The notes under the pieces: model-generated | Database searches by the model: none | The model's input: only the letters and a program-made list of their open reading frames with translations | Told to the model about the DNA's origin: nothing | Program-made: the position numbers and the translations under genes | Assembly: GCA_013372875.1 (NCBI GenBank) | Contig: JABXIW010000284.1 | Span: forward strand, 1-7,037 | Source: Gammaproteobacteria bacterium | GTDB taxonomy: Bacteria; Pseudomonadota; Gammaproteobacteria; Enterobacterales; Kangiellaceae | Direction of reading: 5' to 3' | DNA: 7,037 nt | Shown: positions 1-7,012 of the stretch, piece after piece | Numbering within the stretch: position 1 is the stretch's first letter | Layout: each line of letters starts with the position of its first letter

Positions 1-734
<734 letters not shown>

Positions 735-735
<1 letters not shown>

Positions 736-2069
736 TGGCTAAAATCCTTATTCCATCGTCGTTAATTCCGCTGACAGGATCTGTTCAGCAGAGTTTATTG
801 TTGGCGAAAGAACAGGGTTTTAATATTGATGAGATTGAGTTGGGCGTAAGCCCAACTCAATTTATTCAACTTGTTCTTGGGCAAAATACCTTTCGCGTAA
901 GTACCGATCTGATTGACGTATGTGAAGAAGCAGAAAATGCCGATTTTGTGCTTTACTACCAATCTGGTCTATCAGTTTCAGAATGTCGCCAACAACCATC
1001 CTCGGCCATTTTTATTGGTATTGAAGACGTAGAGTCTAAGCACGATGATTCTGTTGAGACGACAAGCGCGGACGTGTTGGATATCTGGCGCCATCCGATT
1101 AATGATGAAGTAAGAGCTCTATCAGTTGCTTCTACTTTTCGAACTACAACTCTTCAAACCGATCAACACTTAGCGTGGACAGTAACGCTGCTTGCTCTCG
1201 ATTTTCCTATTGAAGACGCTTTGACCTTGGCGCGCGCAATGACGAATGTTTCACGTGAAACACTTATTAATGGTGAAACAATGGTTAAGCAGGAGTGGGC
1301 GTCTCAGTTTGCTGACTTTCCTACACCAGTCCTAGAAGATTGTCGTCTAGGCATCAAAGTAGGTTGGTCATCACTCGGGCACTCTGTCAACTTTCCTCAT
1401 CTGAGCAAACAGAGTTTGGGTCTCTATCCGATCGTGGACGACGTCAGTTGGATTGAGCGGCTGTTGCCATTAGGTATCAACACCATTCAACTACGTATCA
1501 AAGACCCCTATCAGCCAGACTTAGAGCAGCAGATTGCACGCGCGATTGAACTCGGTCGTCAGTATGACGCTCAAGTTTTTATTAATGATTATTGGCAACT
1601 AGCAATAAAGCATGGCGCGTTCGGGGTTCATCTTGGTCAAGAGGATATCGAAGATTCCAATTTGAGCCAGTTGAGCACCGCAGGTATTTGCTTAGGTCTA
1701 TCAACCCATGGTTATTATGAACTTCTGCGTATCGTCCAAATTAATCCAAGCTACATTGCGCTGGGGCATATCTTTCCGACCACCACCAAACAAATGCCAT
1801 CCAAGCCGCAAGGTTTGGTTCGCTTAGCCTTGTATCAAAAGCTGATCGATAGCATTCCATATGGTGAAAGTGTTGGCTATCCAACTGTGGCCATTGGTGG
1901 CATTGACCAATCAAACGCAGAGCAAGTTTGGCAATGTGGCGTGTCCAGTTTAGCGGTGGTTCGTGCGATTACCTTGTCCGAATCGCCGAAACAAGTGATT
2001 GAGTTTTTCGACCAACTGATGAGCACAACGAGCACCTCATTGGTAATGGAGGACTATCGTGCTTACTGA
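735..2069 (+). CDS. thiE: Thiamine-phosphate synthase ThiE with degenerate ThiD-like N-terminal domain
   Basis: ThiE couples HMP-PP with the thiazole phosphate to give thiamine phosphate in the cytosol. The 444-residue protein is twice the usual length of about 211. Residues 228-444 are a complete TIM-barrel ThiE, starting LGLYPIVD. They contain the expected active-site segments QLRIK (252-256), NDYW (284-287, Mg/diphosphate Asp285), HLGQED (299-304), STH (323-325), FPTTTKQ (347-353) and AIGGI (386-390). Residues 1 to about 215 are an extra domain. Its stretch around residues 141-170 (TDQHLAWTV...[12 protein letters not shown]) resembles the C-terminal helix region of ThiD/ribokinase-fold kinases. 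The glycine-rich GTGC/GTGD anion hole is replaced by TDQH, so I infer an inactive HMP-P kinase remnant. The ATG overlaps the thiC stop by one base; a weak GAGG lies at 721-724. The 3' end overlaps thiF by 11 nt. A parS palindrome lies inside codons 171-176. ThiE identity is secure; the N-terminal call is inferred. Confidence 0.95.
834..861 (+). repeat. Perfect 12-bp inverted repeat with GTAA tetraloop, inside thiE
   Basis: ATTGAGTTGGGC (834-845) and its exact reverse complement (850-861) flank the four bases GTAA. The RNA would form a 12-bp stem capped by a GNRA-class tetraloop, extendable by one G-U and one A-U pair at the base. TTTATT-like sequence follows from 861, a poor but not absent U tract. 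It lies about 100 nt into thiE (codons 34-43). It could be a weak intragenic terminator or an mRNA-stabilising hairpin that sets thiC above the distal genes; this role is inference. Confidence 0.6.
1247..1262. other. parS: parS centromere-like site (ParB-binding palindrome) within thiE
   Basis: The 16 bases TGTTTCACGTGAAACA form a perfect palindrome and fit the bacterial chromosomal parS consensus TGTTNCACGTGAAACA. ParB binds such sites, spreads along neighbouring DNA and, with ParA, segregates the origin region. The site lies fully inside thiE, across codons 171-176 (N-V-S-R-E-T), in the non-catalytic N-terminal domain. An identical copy occurs at 5067-5082. Vibrio chromosome I parS sites are known to cluster tens of kilobases from oriC. 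Confidence 0.9.
2047..2053 (+). promoter_or_regulatory. Strong Shine-Dalgarno that decides the GTG start of thiF
   Basis: TGGAGGA, inside the last codons of thiE, is near-perfectly complementary to the 16S rRNA 3' end and lies 5 nt before GTG 2059-2061. It supports the GTG start and a ThiF N-terminus ([13 protein letters not shown]) that matches the family (E. coli MNDRDFMRYSRQ). Confidence 0.8.
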
Positions 2070-2841
2070 TCAAGAATTCATTCGTTATCAGCGTCAAGTT
2101 TCGTTACCTGAAATCGGAGAATCGGGCCAAGCTCGTCTTGGTCAATCTCATGTGTTGCTCATCGGCTGTGGTGGGTTGGGTAGTGCAGCAAGTTTATATC
2201 TCGCGGCTGCTGGCGTGGGTAAGTTGGTTGTGATTGATGATGACTGTGTCGACAGCAGCAATTTACAACGCCAGGTAATCTATCGTGAAGGCGACATTAA
2301 ACTGGCGAAAACCGAAGCGATGGCACAGCAGCTTCGTCATCTCAATTCATTAATTCAGGTACGCACGATTACCAAGCGCCTCGACCAAGCTCAGTTACAA
2401 CTCGAAGTCATGTTGGCGGATGTGGTGTTGGATTGCAGTGACAACCTGCCAACGAGGCAGCAGATCAATCAAGTTTGTTATGAGCAAAATACACCTCTGA
2501 TATCGGCGGCAGCGATTGGTTGGCAAGGGCAGTTTGCTGTTTTTGACTACTCAGACAAACTATCAAATTCAGGCTGCTATCGATGCTTGTATCCATTTGA
2601 TGAATTGCAGCAAACAATGAAGTGCAGCGAAACCGGCATTATTGGCCCTGTGGTGGGCACTCTGGGGAACTACCAAGCTCTCGCTGCTATTCAAAAGTTG
2701 GCGATAGATCGCTTTCATGTTGAGTGTGGTCAGTTACACCTCTTTGATGGATTGCGGATGAACTGGCAGACCATGTCTATAACCAAAGACAAGCAATGTC
2801 AGGTTTGTGGTGACAATAATCTTGCACCAGTGAGCAGTTAA
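2059..2841 (+). CDS. thiF: Sulfur carrier protein ThiS adenylyltransferase ThiF
   Basis: ThiF is an E1-like (MoeB/HesA/ThiF) enzyme. It adenylates the C-terminal Gly-Gly of ThiS so that sulfur can be added, the first step toward thiazole formation in the cytosol. The 260-residue protein matches E. coli ThiF end to end. It has the nucleotide-binding loop GCGGLG (36-41), the acidic strand IDDD with SNLQRQ (60-72, Arg71) and DCSDN (125-129). The zinc cysteines are paired as CYRC (173, 176) and CQVC (247, 250). Cys189 in [14 protein letters not shown] is at the place of the E. coli cysteine reported to form an acyl disulfide with ThiS. The start is GTG with a strong Shine-Dalgarno inside thiE, and the first 11 nt overlap thiE. 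MoeB is the nearest alternative, but the gene context and the Cys189 segment favour ThiF. After the stop, 79 nt precede thiS. Confidence 0.96.
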
Positions 2842-2920: not shown

Positions 2921-3124
2921 GTGATAACTATCGCTATAAACGACCAAGCTCAGCAGGTCGAGTGTAAAGCCAACCTACAGCAAATCATTACCCAGTTTTC
3001 TCTGCCTGAAATGGGCTGTGTTTTTGCCATTAATAATCAAGTGGTGCCGCGTAGCGAATGGGCGAGTACGGTACTTTCTGAGGGAGATAGCATCTCTCTG
3101 TTTCAAGCCATCGCAGGGGGATAA
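2921..3124 (+). CDS. thiS: Thiamine biosynthesis sulfur carrier protein ThiS
   Basis: ThiS is a small ubiquitin-fold protein whose C-terminal Gly-Gly is adenylated by ThiF and converted to a thiocarboxylate, the sulfur donor to the ThiG thiazole synthase. From GTG 2921 the product is 67 residues, against 66 for E. coli ThiS. The tail FQAIAGG ends exactly at Gly-Gly, which is the functional requirement, and the central part ([24 protein letters not shown]) follows the E. coli pattern (LAINQQIVPREQWAQHIVQDGDQI). The start was chosen because a good Shine-Dalgarno lies just before it and the resulting N-terminus [11 protein letters not shown] lines up with E. coli QILFNDQAMQ; an upstream in-frame TTG at 2888 is not supported. 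The TAA overlaps the thiG ATG by one base (TAATG), suggesting coupled translation of this donor with its acceptor enzyme. Confidence 0.95.
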
Positions 3125-3897
3125 TGTCGATGCTGAAAATTGGTGATAAAGAATTTCAATCACGCTTGTTCACAGGAACAGGCAAATTTTCTAATAGCCA
3201 TTTAATGGCCGAAGCCATCCAGGTTTCAGGTTCACAGCTCGCGACGATGGCGCTTAAACGTGTGGATGTGCATGATCAGCAAGATGACATTTTGCAGCCT
3301 CTGATTCACGCCGGTGTGAATTTGCTACCGAACACCTCTGGCGCTAAAAATGCTAAAGATGCAGTTTTTGCTGCGCAGCTTGCTCGCGAAGCGTTGGGCA
3401 CAAATTGGGTCAAACTGGAGATCCATCCCGACCCAAAATACTTAATGCCTGACCCGATAGAAACCTTAGCCGCTGCCGAACAGCTCGCGCGAGATGGCTT
3501 TATTGTATTGCCATATTGCCATGCCGATCCGGTGTTGTGTAAGCGGCTGGAAGAAGTTGGCTGTGCTGCGGTGATGCCATTGGGTGCACCGATTGGTTCG
3601 AACAAAGGTATCGCTTCGCACGATTTTCTAGAAATCATTATTGACCAAGCGAACGTACCTGTTGTTGTGGATGCGGGAATTGGTGCTCCTTCACATGCGG
3701 CAAGGGCGATGGAAATGGGCGCGGATGCCGTGTTGGTGAATACGGCCATCGCTGCCGCAAGTAATCCCGTTGCGATGGCGAAAGCGTTCAAGATGGCAGT
3801 CGAGTCAGGTCGTATGGCTTATGAAGCTGGGCTTGCAGGGAAAGTTTCTCATGCCGTTGCTTCAAGTCCACTAACGGCTTTTCTCGATGAACTGTAG
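3124..3897 (+). CDS. thiG: Thiazole synthase ThiG
   Basis: ThiG is a TIM-barrel enzyme that forms the thiazole phosphate from 1-deoxy-D-xylulose 5-phosphate, dehydroglycine (from ThiH) and ThiS thiocarboxylate. At 257 residues it has the normal length and is colinear with E. coli ThiG: FTGTGKF near the start, [20 protein letters not shown] with the Schiff-base lysine Lys97, [22 protein letters not shown], and the C-terminal phosphate-binding strands [12 protein letters not shown] and [12 protein letters not shown]. The start is uncertain by two codons. ATG 3124 forms TAATG with thiS, but the AGGGGG ribosome site at 3115-3120 is only 3 nt away. ATG 3130 has a 9-nt spacing and gives the family-typical N-terminus MLKIGDK. 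The longer form is listed. The gene is followed by thiH after 15 nt. Function is certain. Confidence 0.97.
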
Positions 3898-3912: not shown

Positions 3913-5040
3913 ATGAGCTTTTATGATCGCTTTCAGCAGCTCGATTGGGATGACATATCCATGTCGATTTATGCCAAAACGGCGCAAGATGTGGAAAGGG
4001 CGTTAGCAACACCCAAACGAGATTTGGAAGATTTTAAAGCGTTGATTTCTCCTGCTGCTGAACCGTACTTAGAGCAGATGGCAAAGCTTTCTTATTCGCT
4101 GACGCGTAAGCGTTTTGGCAACACTATGTCGCTGTATATCCCGCTGTACCTCTCTAATCTTTGCGCCAACGCTTGTACCTATTGTGGCTTCTCTATGGAG
4201 AACCGCATAAAGCGAAGAACGCTGAATAGGGACGAAGTTGAGGCGGAGATTGATGCGATTAAGCGAATGAAGTTCGACAGCGTGTTACTGGTAACGGGTG
4301 AGCATGAGACCAAAGTTGGGATGAAATACTTTCGCGAAATGGTGCCAATTATCAAGCAGCGATTTAACTATTTAGCGATGGAAGTCCAACCGTTGAATCA
4401 GGACGAATACGCCGAGCTCAAAACATTGGGCCTTGATGCGGTGATGGTGTATCAAGAAACCTATCATCCCAAAACATATGCTCAGCATCATTTGCGTGGC
4501 AATAAAATGGATTTCCGATACCGGCTTGAAACGCCTGATAGGTTGGCAAAGGCGGGGATCGACAAAATCGGTATTGGCGCTTTGATTGGTTTGGAAGAGT
4601 GGCGCACCGACTGCTTTTTTGCTGCTGCGCATCTGGATTACCTGGAGCGTACTTATTGGCAATCGCGTTATTCGATTTCTTTTCCTCGTTTACGCCCTTG
4701 TGCCGGTAATGCACCAGCGTCGGGATTACAACCGAAATCCGTCATGACGGATAAGCAGTTGGTGCAATTGATTTGCGCCTATCGACTGTTTAATCCGGAA
4801 GTGGAGTTGTCATTGTCGACGCGCGAATCACCACAGTTTCGCGACAATGTTTTGCCGTTAGGCATCACGAGTATGTCTGCGGCATCGAAAACACAACCCG
4901 GTGGTTATGCGACCGAAGAGGTGGAGTTGGAGCAGTTCGAAATCAGTGACGAGCGTAGCGCGGCATCGGTAGAAGACATGATCAAAGCGAAAGGTTTCGC
5001 TCCGGTCTGGCGTGATTGGCACTCAGTTTACTCAGGTTAA
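3913..5040 (+). CDS. thiH: 2-iminoacetate synthase (tyrosine lyase) ThiH
   Basis: ThiH is a radical SAM enzyme that splits L-tyrosine into p-cresol and dehydroglycine (2-iminoacetate), which ThiG uses for the thiazole ring. It is the oxygen-sensitive route, in place of glycine oxidase ThiO. The 375-residue protein closely follows E. coli ThiH (377). The SAM/[4Fe-4S] motif CxxxCxxC is Cys84, Cys88, Cys91 in LCANACTYCGFSM. Further conserved blocks are LLVTGEHETKVG, MEVQPL, VMVYQETYH, RLETPDRL.KAGIDKIGIGALIGL, SFPRLRPC and LSLSTRESP...SKTQPGGYA. Compared with E. coli there is a short insertion after RLRPCAG (around residues 265-272), and the last residues of the E. coli C-terminus are absent. 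The ATG is preceded by GAGG (3902-3905) at 7 nt. It is the last gene of the operon; a parS palindrome and a terminator follow. Confidence 0.97.
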   Translation: MSFYDRFQQLDWDDISMSIYAKTAQDVERALATPKRDLEDFKALISPAAEPYLEQMAKLSYSLTRKRFGNTMSLYIPLYLSNLCANACTYCGFSMENRIKRRTLNRDEVEAEIDAIKRMKFDSVLLVTGEHETKVGMKYFREMVPIIKQRFNYLAMEVQPLNQDEYAELKTLGLDAVMVYQETYHPKTYAQHHLRGNKMDFRYRLETPDRLAKAGIDKIGIGALIGLEEWRTDCFFAAAHLDYLERTYWQSRYSISFPRLRPCAGNAPASGLQPKSVMTDKQLVQLICAYRLFNPEVELSLSTRESPQFRDNVLPLGITSMSAASKTQPGGYATEEVELEQFEISDERSAASVEDMIKAKGFAPVWRDWHSVYSG

Positions 5041-5066: not shown

Positions 5067-5082
5067 TGTTTCACGTGAAACA
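5067..5082. other. parS: parS centromere-like site (ParB-binding palindrome) downstream of thiH
   Basis: A second exact copy of the palindrome TGTTTCACGTGAAACA starts 26 nt after the thiH stop. It is non-coding, so its perfect symmetry is not explained by protein constraint. With the copy at 1247-1262 it forms a pair 3,820 bp apart. It lies on the operon side of the terminator at 5161-5187, so it is probably transcribed in the thiH mRNA tail. Function as a ParB1 nucleation site is inferred from the match to the parS consensus. Confidence 0.92.
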
Positions 5083-5160: not shown

Positions 5161-5190
5161 AAAGGCTCTCCAAGTGGAGAGCCTTTTCTA
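5161..5190. terminator. Bidirectional intrinsic terminator between thiH and the aminopeptidase gene
   Basis: AAAGGCTCTCC (5161-5171) pairs perfectly over 11 bp with GGAGAGCCTTT (5176-5186) around an AAGT loop. On the plus strand it is followed by TTTTCTATTTT. On the minus strand the stem is followed by TTTGTTTAG-like sequence, so the hairpin can end both the thi operon and the convergent minus-strand gene, whose stop lies about 35 nt away at 5222-5224. The rest of 5083-5160 shows no other feature I can support. Confidence 0.9.
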
Positions 5191-5221: not shown

Positions 5222-7012
5222 TTAAGAGTGGGCCAACGGCAGAGTTGCTTCGCGTAGCCATTCTTTTACTTCGCCTTCAACAAGCGGGCTGATTTGTTCC
5301 CATACTTTTTGATGGTAGTCGTTCAACCAAGCAAGTTCTGGACGAGTCAGCATATCGACATTGATATTACGTTTATCGATTGGACAGCGCGTCAAGGATT
5401 CGAATGATAGAACAGGGAAGTCGCCGTTAGTCGGTGTTTCAACTACGAGCTCTAGGTTCTCGATACGGATACCGAACGCATCTGCACGGTAGTAGCCAGG
5501 CTCATTTGATAGCACCATGCCTTCAGTTAGCGGCACATCAATTTGTTTCTTAGAGATGCTTGCCGGACCTTCATGCACACTTAGGAAGTGACCTACACCG
5601 TGGCCAGTACCGTGGTCGTAGTCATAACCTTCCGCCCAGAGATGTTGGCGAGCCAATGTATCGATTTGGTAACCGCGAGTGCCTTTCGGGAAGCGGGCAC
5701 GTGCTACACCGATATGACCTTTCAGCGCGAGAGTGAACTGTTTGATCATTTCTGCTGATGGCTGACCAATCGCGATGGTGCGTGTAATGTCGGTTGTGCC
5801 ATCTAGATACTGACCGCCTGAATCAACAAGGTAAAGTGTGTTCAGCTCTAGCTTACCTGGCTCAGGTTGGTTCTCATGATTGTAGTGACACATGGCCGCA
5901 TTGCCGCCTGCCGCAGAAATGGTATCAAAGCTCAGATCCATCAGCGTTGGGTCTTCTTTACGGAATGCTTCTAGGCGATCAGCCAGTGTAGCTTCATCAT
6001 GAAGATTGCCTGCAGCCACTTCGGCATCTAGCCAGCAAAGGAATTTGCTCATCGCTACACCGTCGCGGATATGACAGGCTTTCATGCCCGCAATCTCAAT
6101 TTCGTTTTTCGCGGCTTTTGGCATTAGGCACGGATCGGCTGCAGCAATAACCGATGCGCCCGCATTTTGCAGAACTAACTTAAACCATGCGTTACTGATT
6201 GCTGGGTCGAGCAATACCTTTTTACCAGACATGGCTTCAAGGCGAGATTGAAGTGCTTCTGGATGATGAACCGTCACACCAGTGCCCACGTGCGCTGCAA
6301 ATTCAGCAGGTAAGCGAGCGGGATCTAGGAAGTACTCTACACTTGAGTCGGCATGAAGAATCGCGTGCGACAGTAAAACTGGCAAACGCGATACATCCAA
6401 GCCACGTACGTTCAATAGCCAACAAATAGAATCAAGCGCTGTGATGACTGCGCTGTCTGCACCGGCTTTTGCTACCAGTTGAGCGATCTCTTTACGCTTA
6501 CTTTCGCTTGATTGACCAACGGCTTGTGTTGGCATAAGGCGAACGTCAGAAACCACTGGTGCAGGGCGGTCATGCCACAATTCATCAATTGGGTTGCCGG
6601 AGAGAATGTTTAGCTCAAGTTTTCCGGCCAGTTTTGCTTGTGCCATATCTAGCCAAGCCGAGCTGTGCATGCGAGGGTCGATAGCCACGGACGCATTTGC
6701 GGTTAGATTGTCTTGAATCCAATCCAATGCCGGTTCTTCAATTAGGTGGCGATATTCAAACAACTCGCTAGGAACTTGTTTGGTCACTTGAACTGTATAG
6801 CGACCATCAACAAAAATCGCGGCTTTGTCTTGTGTGATCACGGCTGCGCCTGCAGAGCCTGTGAATCCGGTTAGCCAATGGAGGCGTTCATTGTGCGCAG
6901 GGACATATTCACCCAGGTATTCATCTTCGTGAGGGATCAGTAGGGCATCAATGTTGTGTTGAGCAAGCCATTCGCGAATTGCGTTCACGCGGCTTAGGGT
7001 ATCGTTGTGCAT
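5222..7012 (-). CDS. Xaa-Pro aminopeptidase, large three-domain aminopeptidase P (M24B)
   Basis: This cytosolic metallopeptidase removes an N-terminal residue that precedes proline. At 596 residues it is the long, eukaryotic APP1-like type, not the roughly 440-residue E. coli PepP type, so no pepP symbol is given. Domain order is creatinase-N-like domain 1 (about 5-135, with LLIPHEDEYLGEYVP and WLTGFTGSAG), a second creatinase-like domain (about 155-300), the pitta-bread M24 catalytic domain (about 310-525) and a short C-terminal tail domain (about 530-590). All five metal ligands are visible: Asp397 (VDSGG), Asp408 (TTDIT), His471 (GTGHGVGH), Glu504 (SNEPGYY) and Glu518 (RIENL). The active-site histidines His376, His467 and His480 are also present. 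There is no signal peptide. The ATG has AAGGAA (7021-7026 on the complement) 8 nt upstream. It converges on the thi operon and has no obvious role in thiamine synthesis. Its promoter lies beyond the window. Confidence 0.95.
   Translation of the reverse strand: MHNDTLSRVNAIREWLAQHNIDALLIPHEDEYLGEYVPAHNERLHWLTGFTGSAGAAVITQDKAAIFVDGRYTVQVTKQVPSELFEYRHLIEEPALDWIQDNLTANASVAIDPRMHSSAWLDMAQAKLAGKLELNILSGNPIDELWHDRPAPVVSDVRLMPTQAVGQSSESKRKEIAQLVAKAGADSAVITALDSICWLLNVRGLDVSRLPVLLSHAILHADSSVEYFLDPARLPAEFAAHVGTGVTVHHPEALQSRLEAMSGKKVLLDPAISNAWFKLVLQNAGASVIAAADPCLMPKAAKNEIEIAGMKACHIRDGVAMSKFLCWLDAEVAAGNLHDEATLADRLEAFRKEDPTLMDLSFDTISAAGGNAAMCHYNHENQPEPGKLELNTLYLVDSGGQYLDGTTDITRTIAIGQPSAEMIKQFTLALKGHIGVARARFPKGTRGYQIDTLARQHLWAEGYDYDHGTGHGVGHFLSVHEGPASISKKQIDVPLTEGMVLSNEPGYYRADAFGIRIENLELVVETPTNGDFPVLSFESLTRCPIDKRNINVDMLTRPELAWLNDYHQKVWEQISPLVEGEVKEWLREATLPLAHS

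Follow-up and report, generated by a model that had tools for sequence, protein, structure and literature searches.

The window analysed here, a stretch of 7,037 nucleotides, is by its gene content a Vibrio-type thi operon followed by a convergent gene for an M24-family peptidase (Table 1). It opens in the 3′ part of thiC, the stop codon of which overlaps the start of thiE by one base. The thiE gene codes for a thiamine phosphate synthase with an N-terminal extension, which scores 719.7 bits against the NCBIfam model NF008933 (cut-off 516). The last gene of the operon was named thiH from its domain content and its place in the operon. A scan of the window for terminator-like hairpins found a single one, against 0.4 expected in shuffled sequences. 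Upstream of thiC, two relatives (L049 and L076) have a TPP riboswitch and an rRNA operon, or the 5S end of one.

Table 1. Features of the window and the evidence for each; positions are counted from its first nucleotide.
Feature	Position	Strand	Basis
thiC, 3′ part	1..735	+	PF01964
thiE, thiamine phosphate synthase with N-terminal extension, 444 aa	735..2069	+	NF008933
ThiE N-terminal domain, putative reduced ribokinase-type fold (pyridoxal kinase/ThiD-like)	735..1370	+	
Predicted parS in thiE, codons N171-T176	1247..1262	no strand	exact palindrome TGTTTCACGTGAAACA; synonymous freeze
ThiE catalytic domain (TMP-TENI)	1440..1970	+	PF02581, residues 236-412
thiF	2059..2841	+	TIGR02356
thiS	2921..3124	+	TIGR01683
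thiG	3124..3897	+	PF05690
thiH (radical SAM and BATS domains)	3913..5040	+	PF04055, PF06968
Predicted second parS, intergenic, 26 bp past the thiH stop	5067..5082	no strand	exact copy of TGTTTCACGTGAAACA
Terminator-like hairpin, 3′ of the second parS	5161..5186	+	consensus scan
M24-family peptidase gene, convergent	5222..7012	-	PF00557, PF16189, PF16188, PF01321

Two copies of the 16-bp palindrome TGTTTCACGTGAAACA are present, one inside thiE and the other downstream of thiH; both are perfect and identical, as the first-pass annotation had reported, and a scan of the window permitting up to three mismatches recovered nothing besides these two. A chance origin was rejected, with 0.06 matches expected in the window and none of 200 shuffles containing two. 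The 16-mer is an exact match to the parS consensus of Vibrio cholerae chromosome I, NGTTNCACGTGAAACN (PMC7022226). Read from the ATG at position 735, the thiE copy falls on the codons AAT GTT TCA CGT GAA ACA (N171 to T176), with the palindrome beginning at the third base of the first of these. Since the Pfam TMP-TENI match spans only residues 236-412, the site lies outside the catalytic domain. Three further proposals made at the outset have held up: that the palindrome is a parS, which fits both the consensus and the clustering of such sites in a close relative (below); that it is simultaneously read as protein; and that it sits in a part of ThiE that seems not to be catalytic.

Our search for relatives covered 296 genomes, of which 291 had a thiE match, and loci were taken from 150 of them: the 30 best and 120 picked by hand, mainly for weaker matches, with species overlapping those of the 80 loci used for the codon analysis below. 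In the closest genome compared (G177, 5.2 Mb), whose thiE is 97% identical to that of the window, there are four matches to GTTNCACGTGNAAC, all of them in one 58-kb stretch (C1:97,317-155,320), and a parB gene at position 209,961 of the same contig, which puts it some 55 kb away from the parS in thiE. Going by this relative, the thiE site of the window is one member of a parS cluster. Three to six consensus sites were counted in each of 20 chosen genomes, and at least one was present in 28 of the 30 picked for weak thiE matches. ParB (TIGR00180, above the cut-off) was detected in all 18 of the relatives' genomes that were searched, and in every one of these proteins the recognition region takes the form GKSRxx(V/I)(S/T)NLLRLN.

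Among the closest counterparts is the ParABS1 system of V. cholerae, which has in common with the present case both the class of 16-mer and the three clustered sites parS1-3. There, ParB1 ChIP-seq shows three peaks exactly at the parS sites within 7 kb, and the first site, at 62,438, follows an rRNA operon (53,823-59,123) by about 3.3 kb (PMC6238139); these ParB1-bound sites begin about 60 kb from oriC1 (PMC6238139, PMC9140986). A comparable geometry is seen in Vibrio mimicus L076, where the 5S rRNA ends at 108, the parS in thiE is at 3592 and the next sites follow 3628 and 6872 bp beyond it, in the same order as in V. cholerae. From this spacing we infer that the V. cholerae site at 62,438 is the thiE site; as the V. 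mimicus site fits the V. cholerae geometry, the V. cholerae orthologue of the thiE site has probably already been proven to be bound by ParB1. The parallel differs in that it concerns another species, and the pertinent passages of the sources deal neither with codons nor with a ThiE domain.

The codons of thiE distinguish between selection on the DNA and selection on the protein. An in-frame 16-mer with at most one mismatch is found in thiE at 80 of 80 loci (the best 80 of 170, from Vibrio, Vibrionaceae and Vibrionales records). The codon set was made of the window and 79 of these loci, omitting L075, which is cut by a contig end, and dropping six of the 80 rows at 97% identity or above, leaving 74 sequences. 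Among the 377 columns tested (those with at least 70 sequences and not Met or Trp), codons 172, 173, 174 and 175 are the only ones with zero synonymous diversity; the mean is 0.59 in 106 control columns with an amino acid at least 95% conserved. When changes are counted on a tree that leaves out residues 160-200, each of the four codons has undergone no third-position change at all, against a mean of 20.0 and a minimum of 5 in the control columns. Codons 171 and 176 show two such changes each, at the ends of parS, where the base is free. Synonymous sites that vary freely between relatives, which the first-pass annotation had set against a parS role, are thus the opposite of what we found.

One might argue instead that NVSRET is a motif needed by ThiE and that the palindrome is a by-product of it. 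Indeed, V172, R174 and T176 are invariant in all 74 sequences and S173 in 73. However, the third positions of codons 172-175 never change, even as the amino acids themselves do: E175G is found in 14 of the 74 sequences and S173P in one, with R174C occurring elsewhere among the relatives. The DNA behind E175G (on the other strand) and that behind S173P both fit NGTTNCACGTGAAACN. Moreover, one group of long ThiE proteins has unrelated residues at this place, and eight rows keep the site outside the reading frame, upstream of a short ThiE. The synonymous freeze refutes protein constraint as the sole cause, and we give this explanation a vanishingly small likelihood.

The same signature emerges from the sites themselves. 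Across 130 distinct thiE sites, variation is confined to positions 1, 5, 8, 12 and 16, with eleven positions never varying; this set consists of sites with at most two mismatches inside a thiE frame, so that lost sites fall outside it, and it can include five short-ThiE frames, the single GVSRGT reading being that of L152 in a different frame. At 75 sites downstream of thiH only positions 1, 5, 12 and 16 vary. In both settings most positions within the 16-mer carry close to 2 bits of information, and those beyond it mostly less than 1. The thiH-downstream site of the relatives forms a 16-bp island within an otherwise little conserved stretch, and at 76 of 80 long-ThiE loci, on a recount, it lies outside any frame of 150 codons or more (inside one in L066, L070, L073 and L074). 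On these alignments, the thiE parS is conserved as DNA and not as protein.

Hence, we proposed, with a probability of about 95%, that the thiE site is a functional chromosome-I parS, the DNA of which is kept by selection for ParB binding while being translated. Under this proposal, ParB dimers would recognize the 16-bp palindrome, load on it and spread, and ParA would carry the ParB-parS complex so that the origin-proximal region is segregated. Selection for ParB binding would maintain the 16-mer, which is also read as the codons of xVSRET; these residues fall in a variable stretch that separates the N-terminal from the catalytic domain of ThiE and would tolerate the amino acids forced upon it. 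That ParB binds the site and that it acts in segregation in the organism of the window is suggested by the V. cholerae data together with the typical ParB of the relatives. Against a parS role stand L147, with a short ThiE, in which the site has decayed, and L170 and L194, with a long ThiE, which lack it while falling among parS-bearing rows.

Beyond these conserved positions, some loci carry further copies. Two in-frame parS occur within a single thiE in L115 (at 1896 and 1947, 51 bp apart, read as VVPRET and CVSRET) and in L054 (at 2976 and 3750, the second near the C-terminus and both read as NVSRET). An additional parS-like sequence, TGTTTCACGTGAAACC, is found at L016:6993 inside a thiF-like frame, in the other open frame, where it reads MFHVKP. 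A third site, CGTTTCACGTGGAACA, is embedded in another gene and read as xFHVEH at several loci, including L049:17313 and L076:10464; in L049 the gene that holds it codes for a major facilitator transporter (PF07690).

The N-terminal extension of ThiE raises the separate question of how the site relates to its protein host. The 50 matches listed by Foldseek for a model of the whole ThiE are thiamin phosphate synthases and similar phosphate-sugar enzymes, and the N-terminal domain was therefore modelled alone. So modelled, it matches structures of the ribokinase family over most of its length, and no sequence relative of it was found in the PDB at E-values up to 1. The extension thus appears, from the model, to be a reduced ThiD/pyridoxal-kinase-like domain, in which the residues encoded by parS span the point where the last long helix ends and a hairpin begins.

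The first-pass annotation had suggested that this extra domain is kept in part because it hosts the site. To be sure, the two coincide in many cases: the site is present in 150 of the 182 rows with a long ThiE if the CATGTG form described below is included, although these rows overlap in species, as do the 231 rows classified overall, such that rows are not to be equated with species. The long-ThiE rows comprise 142 with the site, eight with the CATGTG form and 32 without either; the short-ThiE rows comprise eight with the site just upstream, five in which the frame contains it and 36 without it. The suggestion fails on both sides, as the 32 long rows retain the domain without the site and 13 of 14 domain-less rows (a 12-row clade and L125 and L218) retain the site without the domain. 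In the 12-row clade, where the gap from the thiC match to the ThiE frame is only 28-98 bp, the site lies in or beside the thiC-thiE spacer in 11 rows, the decayed copy being that of L147. In L125 and L218 the frame starts at the end of thiC and its first ATG is 9-10 codons before VSRET; the catalytic domain of L125 is intact. Given that the codons are frozen and that site and domain occur separately, these relatives indicate that selection acts on the DNA, and retention of the domain for the sake of the site is highly improbable.

A tree of the catalytic domain places the short clade, supported by an SH-aLRT of 100, amid the parS-bearing rows and gathers 30 of the 32 site-less long rows in another group, with at least four changes of domain length and at least five of site presence. 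This tree holds 149 of the 231 rows, including 60 of the 142 long parS rows hand-chosen for spread, and comes from a quick search in which 60 of 143 inner branches are weak and the root was not inferred; its long branches include L139, L170, L194 and L216. Most simply read, these sequences point to at least two losses of the domain, each leaving the site in place, where the choice of loss over gain is our own.

An alternative at the level of the transcript is that selection preserves the palindrome for a stem-loop that it would form in the mRNA. This idea draws some encouragement from the second site of the window, which folds somewhat better than shuffles (z -1.97), and from the short-ThiE clade, where a longer hairpin that shows compensatory changes has the site at its tip. 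However, the thiE site of the window folds no better than its shuffles (z -0.39), for which reason a hairpin there was rejected; in a set of 143 in-frame sites of long-ThiE genes, duplicates included, the flanks lengthen the stem by an average of 0.85 pairs; and no compensatory double change is seen within the 16-mer across the 130 thiE sites, the T5C variant being one that would break a stem pair. As an account of why the palindrome is kept, RNA structure is thus very unlikely.

The short-ThiE clade displays a distinct situation: an inverted repeat in which 3-9 further positions pair unbroken beyond the parS (12 rows). This hairpin was noted in the thiC-thiE spacer of L126, L146, L149, L151, L152, L153, L155, L188, L189 and L147. 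Its covariation was assessed on ten distinct sequences, the remaining two of the twelve rows being identical to included ones over 40 bases. Of the cells in this alignment 90.8% are paired, and the covariation of 0.352 compares with 0.207 in shuffles, none of 500 being as high; it drops to 0.14 or less when the partners are slid. Changes on both sides are seen in five pairs, a number that 5 of 500 shuffles attain, and six pair types occur at one pair; the further pair types number 15, which 45 of the 500 shuffles also attain. These controls lean in favour of the hairpin, as the structure was drawn from the same sequences, which are close relatives. Folding of six members gave structures of greater stability than those of shuffles (z -3.4 to -5.5), and in L147, despite the decay of its parS letters, pairing persists in the parS part of the stem. 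At the second parS of the same loci, the flanks of L147 pair at three positions and those of the other 10 of the 11 rows at 0-1.

A further variant is seen in eight long-ThiE rows (L198, L199, L200, L226, L228, L229, L231 and L232) that read HVSCET, the R174C change noted above, encoded by TGTTTCATGTGAAAC(A/G). A search of each of the eight genomes with the pattern GTTTCAYGTGRAAC recovered one GTTTCACGTGAAAC along with several sites that have a CATGTG core, three in six of the genomes and four in the other two. Most of these are no more than some tens of kb apart or stand at the start of a contig, with one site each in G273 and G287 more than 100 kb away from the others. At position 8 this variant departs from the published consensus; nevertheless, we tentatively take it to be a parS form in use. 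The recognition region of the ParB of this clade showed no obvious difference when 18 ParBs were compared by eye, and no thiC was detected within 0.86-1.0 kb upstream of thiE.

It is also conceivable that the loading of ParB at the thiE site, in addition to its part in segregation, has a measurable tuning effect on how strongly the downstream thi genes are expressed. As the stretch that ParB1 covers in V. cholerae measures about 16-18 kb around the parS sites (PMC6238139, PMC7022226), the thi operon should lie beneath it. In Pseudomonas aeruginosa, the intergenic parS3 and parS4 repress their neighbours (PMC5521831), and mild overproduction of ParB silences most genes around the cluster (PMC7022226). 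However, in a V. cholerae parB1 mutant only three genes of the covered region, and several outside it, change in expression (PMC7022226), and the genes beside the intragenic parS1 and parS2 of P. aeruginosa are unaffected at the native ParB level (PMC5521831). With the intragenic precedents for gene regulation being mostly negative, we regard such tuning as rather unlikely.

Location within a coding sequence is itself a known arrangement, as nine of the ten parS of P. aeruginosa are predicted to be in coding sequences, where they have been inactivated by point mutations that spare the coding sequence (PMC4368675). The likeness to the present case ends with this placement: the genes are others, and the pertinent passages of that work hold no long-term comparison of codons (PMC4368675). 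Our literature search of open-licence papers found, among the matches listed, none on the codons of the thiE parS. A survey of centromere-like parS sites across bacteria was reportedly made by Livny et al. in 2007 (cited in PMC8743542).

Thus, what is new here is how the thiE parS evolves and not the existence of an intragenic parS as such. The thiE parS family offers an unusually clean natural experiment, in which DNA-level and protein-level selection meet in the same codons: core codons lack silent changes, several radical amino-acid changes are admitted, and in some lineages the domain is gone with the DNA site left behind. The variants of the site likewise provide a comparative map of the bases tolerated in a parS, and in the short-ThiE clade a centromere may have been put to new use as an RNA element. 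The most far-reaching version, in which a centromere site dictated the interdomain amino acids of an enzyme across the genus, outlived the domain at least twice and became the apex of an mRNA hairpin, is tentative, and we would put it at somewhat worse than even odds. If true, it would mean that changes in the protein were allowed only where ParB allows changes in the DNA, and that one 16-mer serves segregation and possibly, through the thiC-thiE hairpin of one clade, the expression of the operon.
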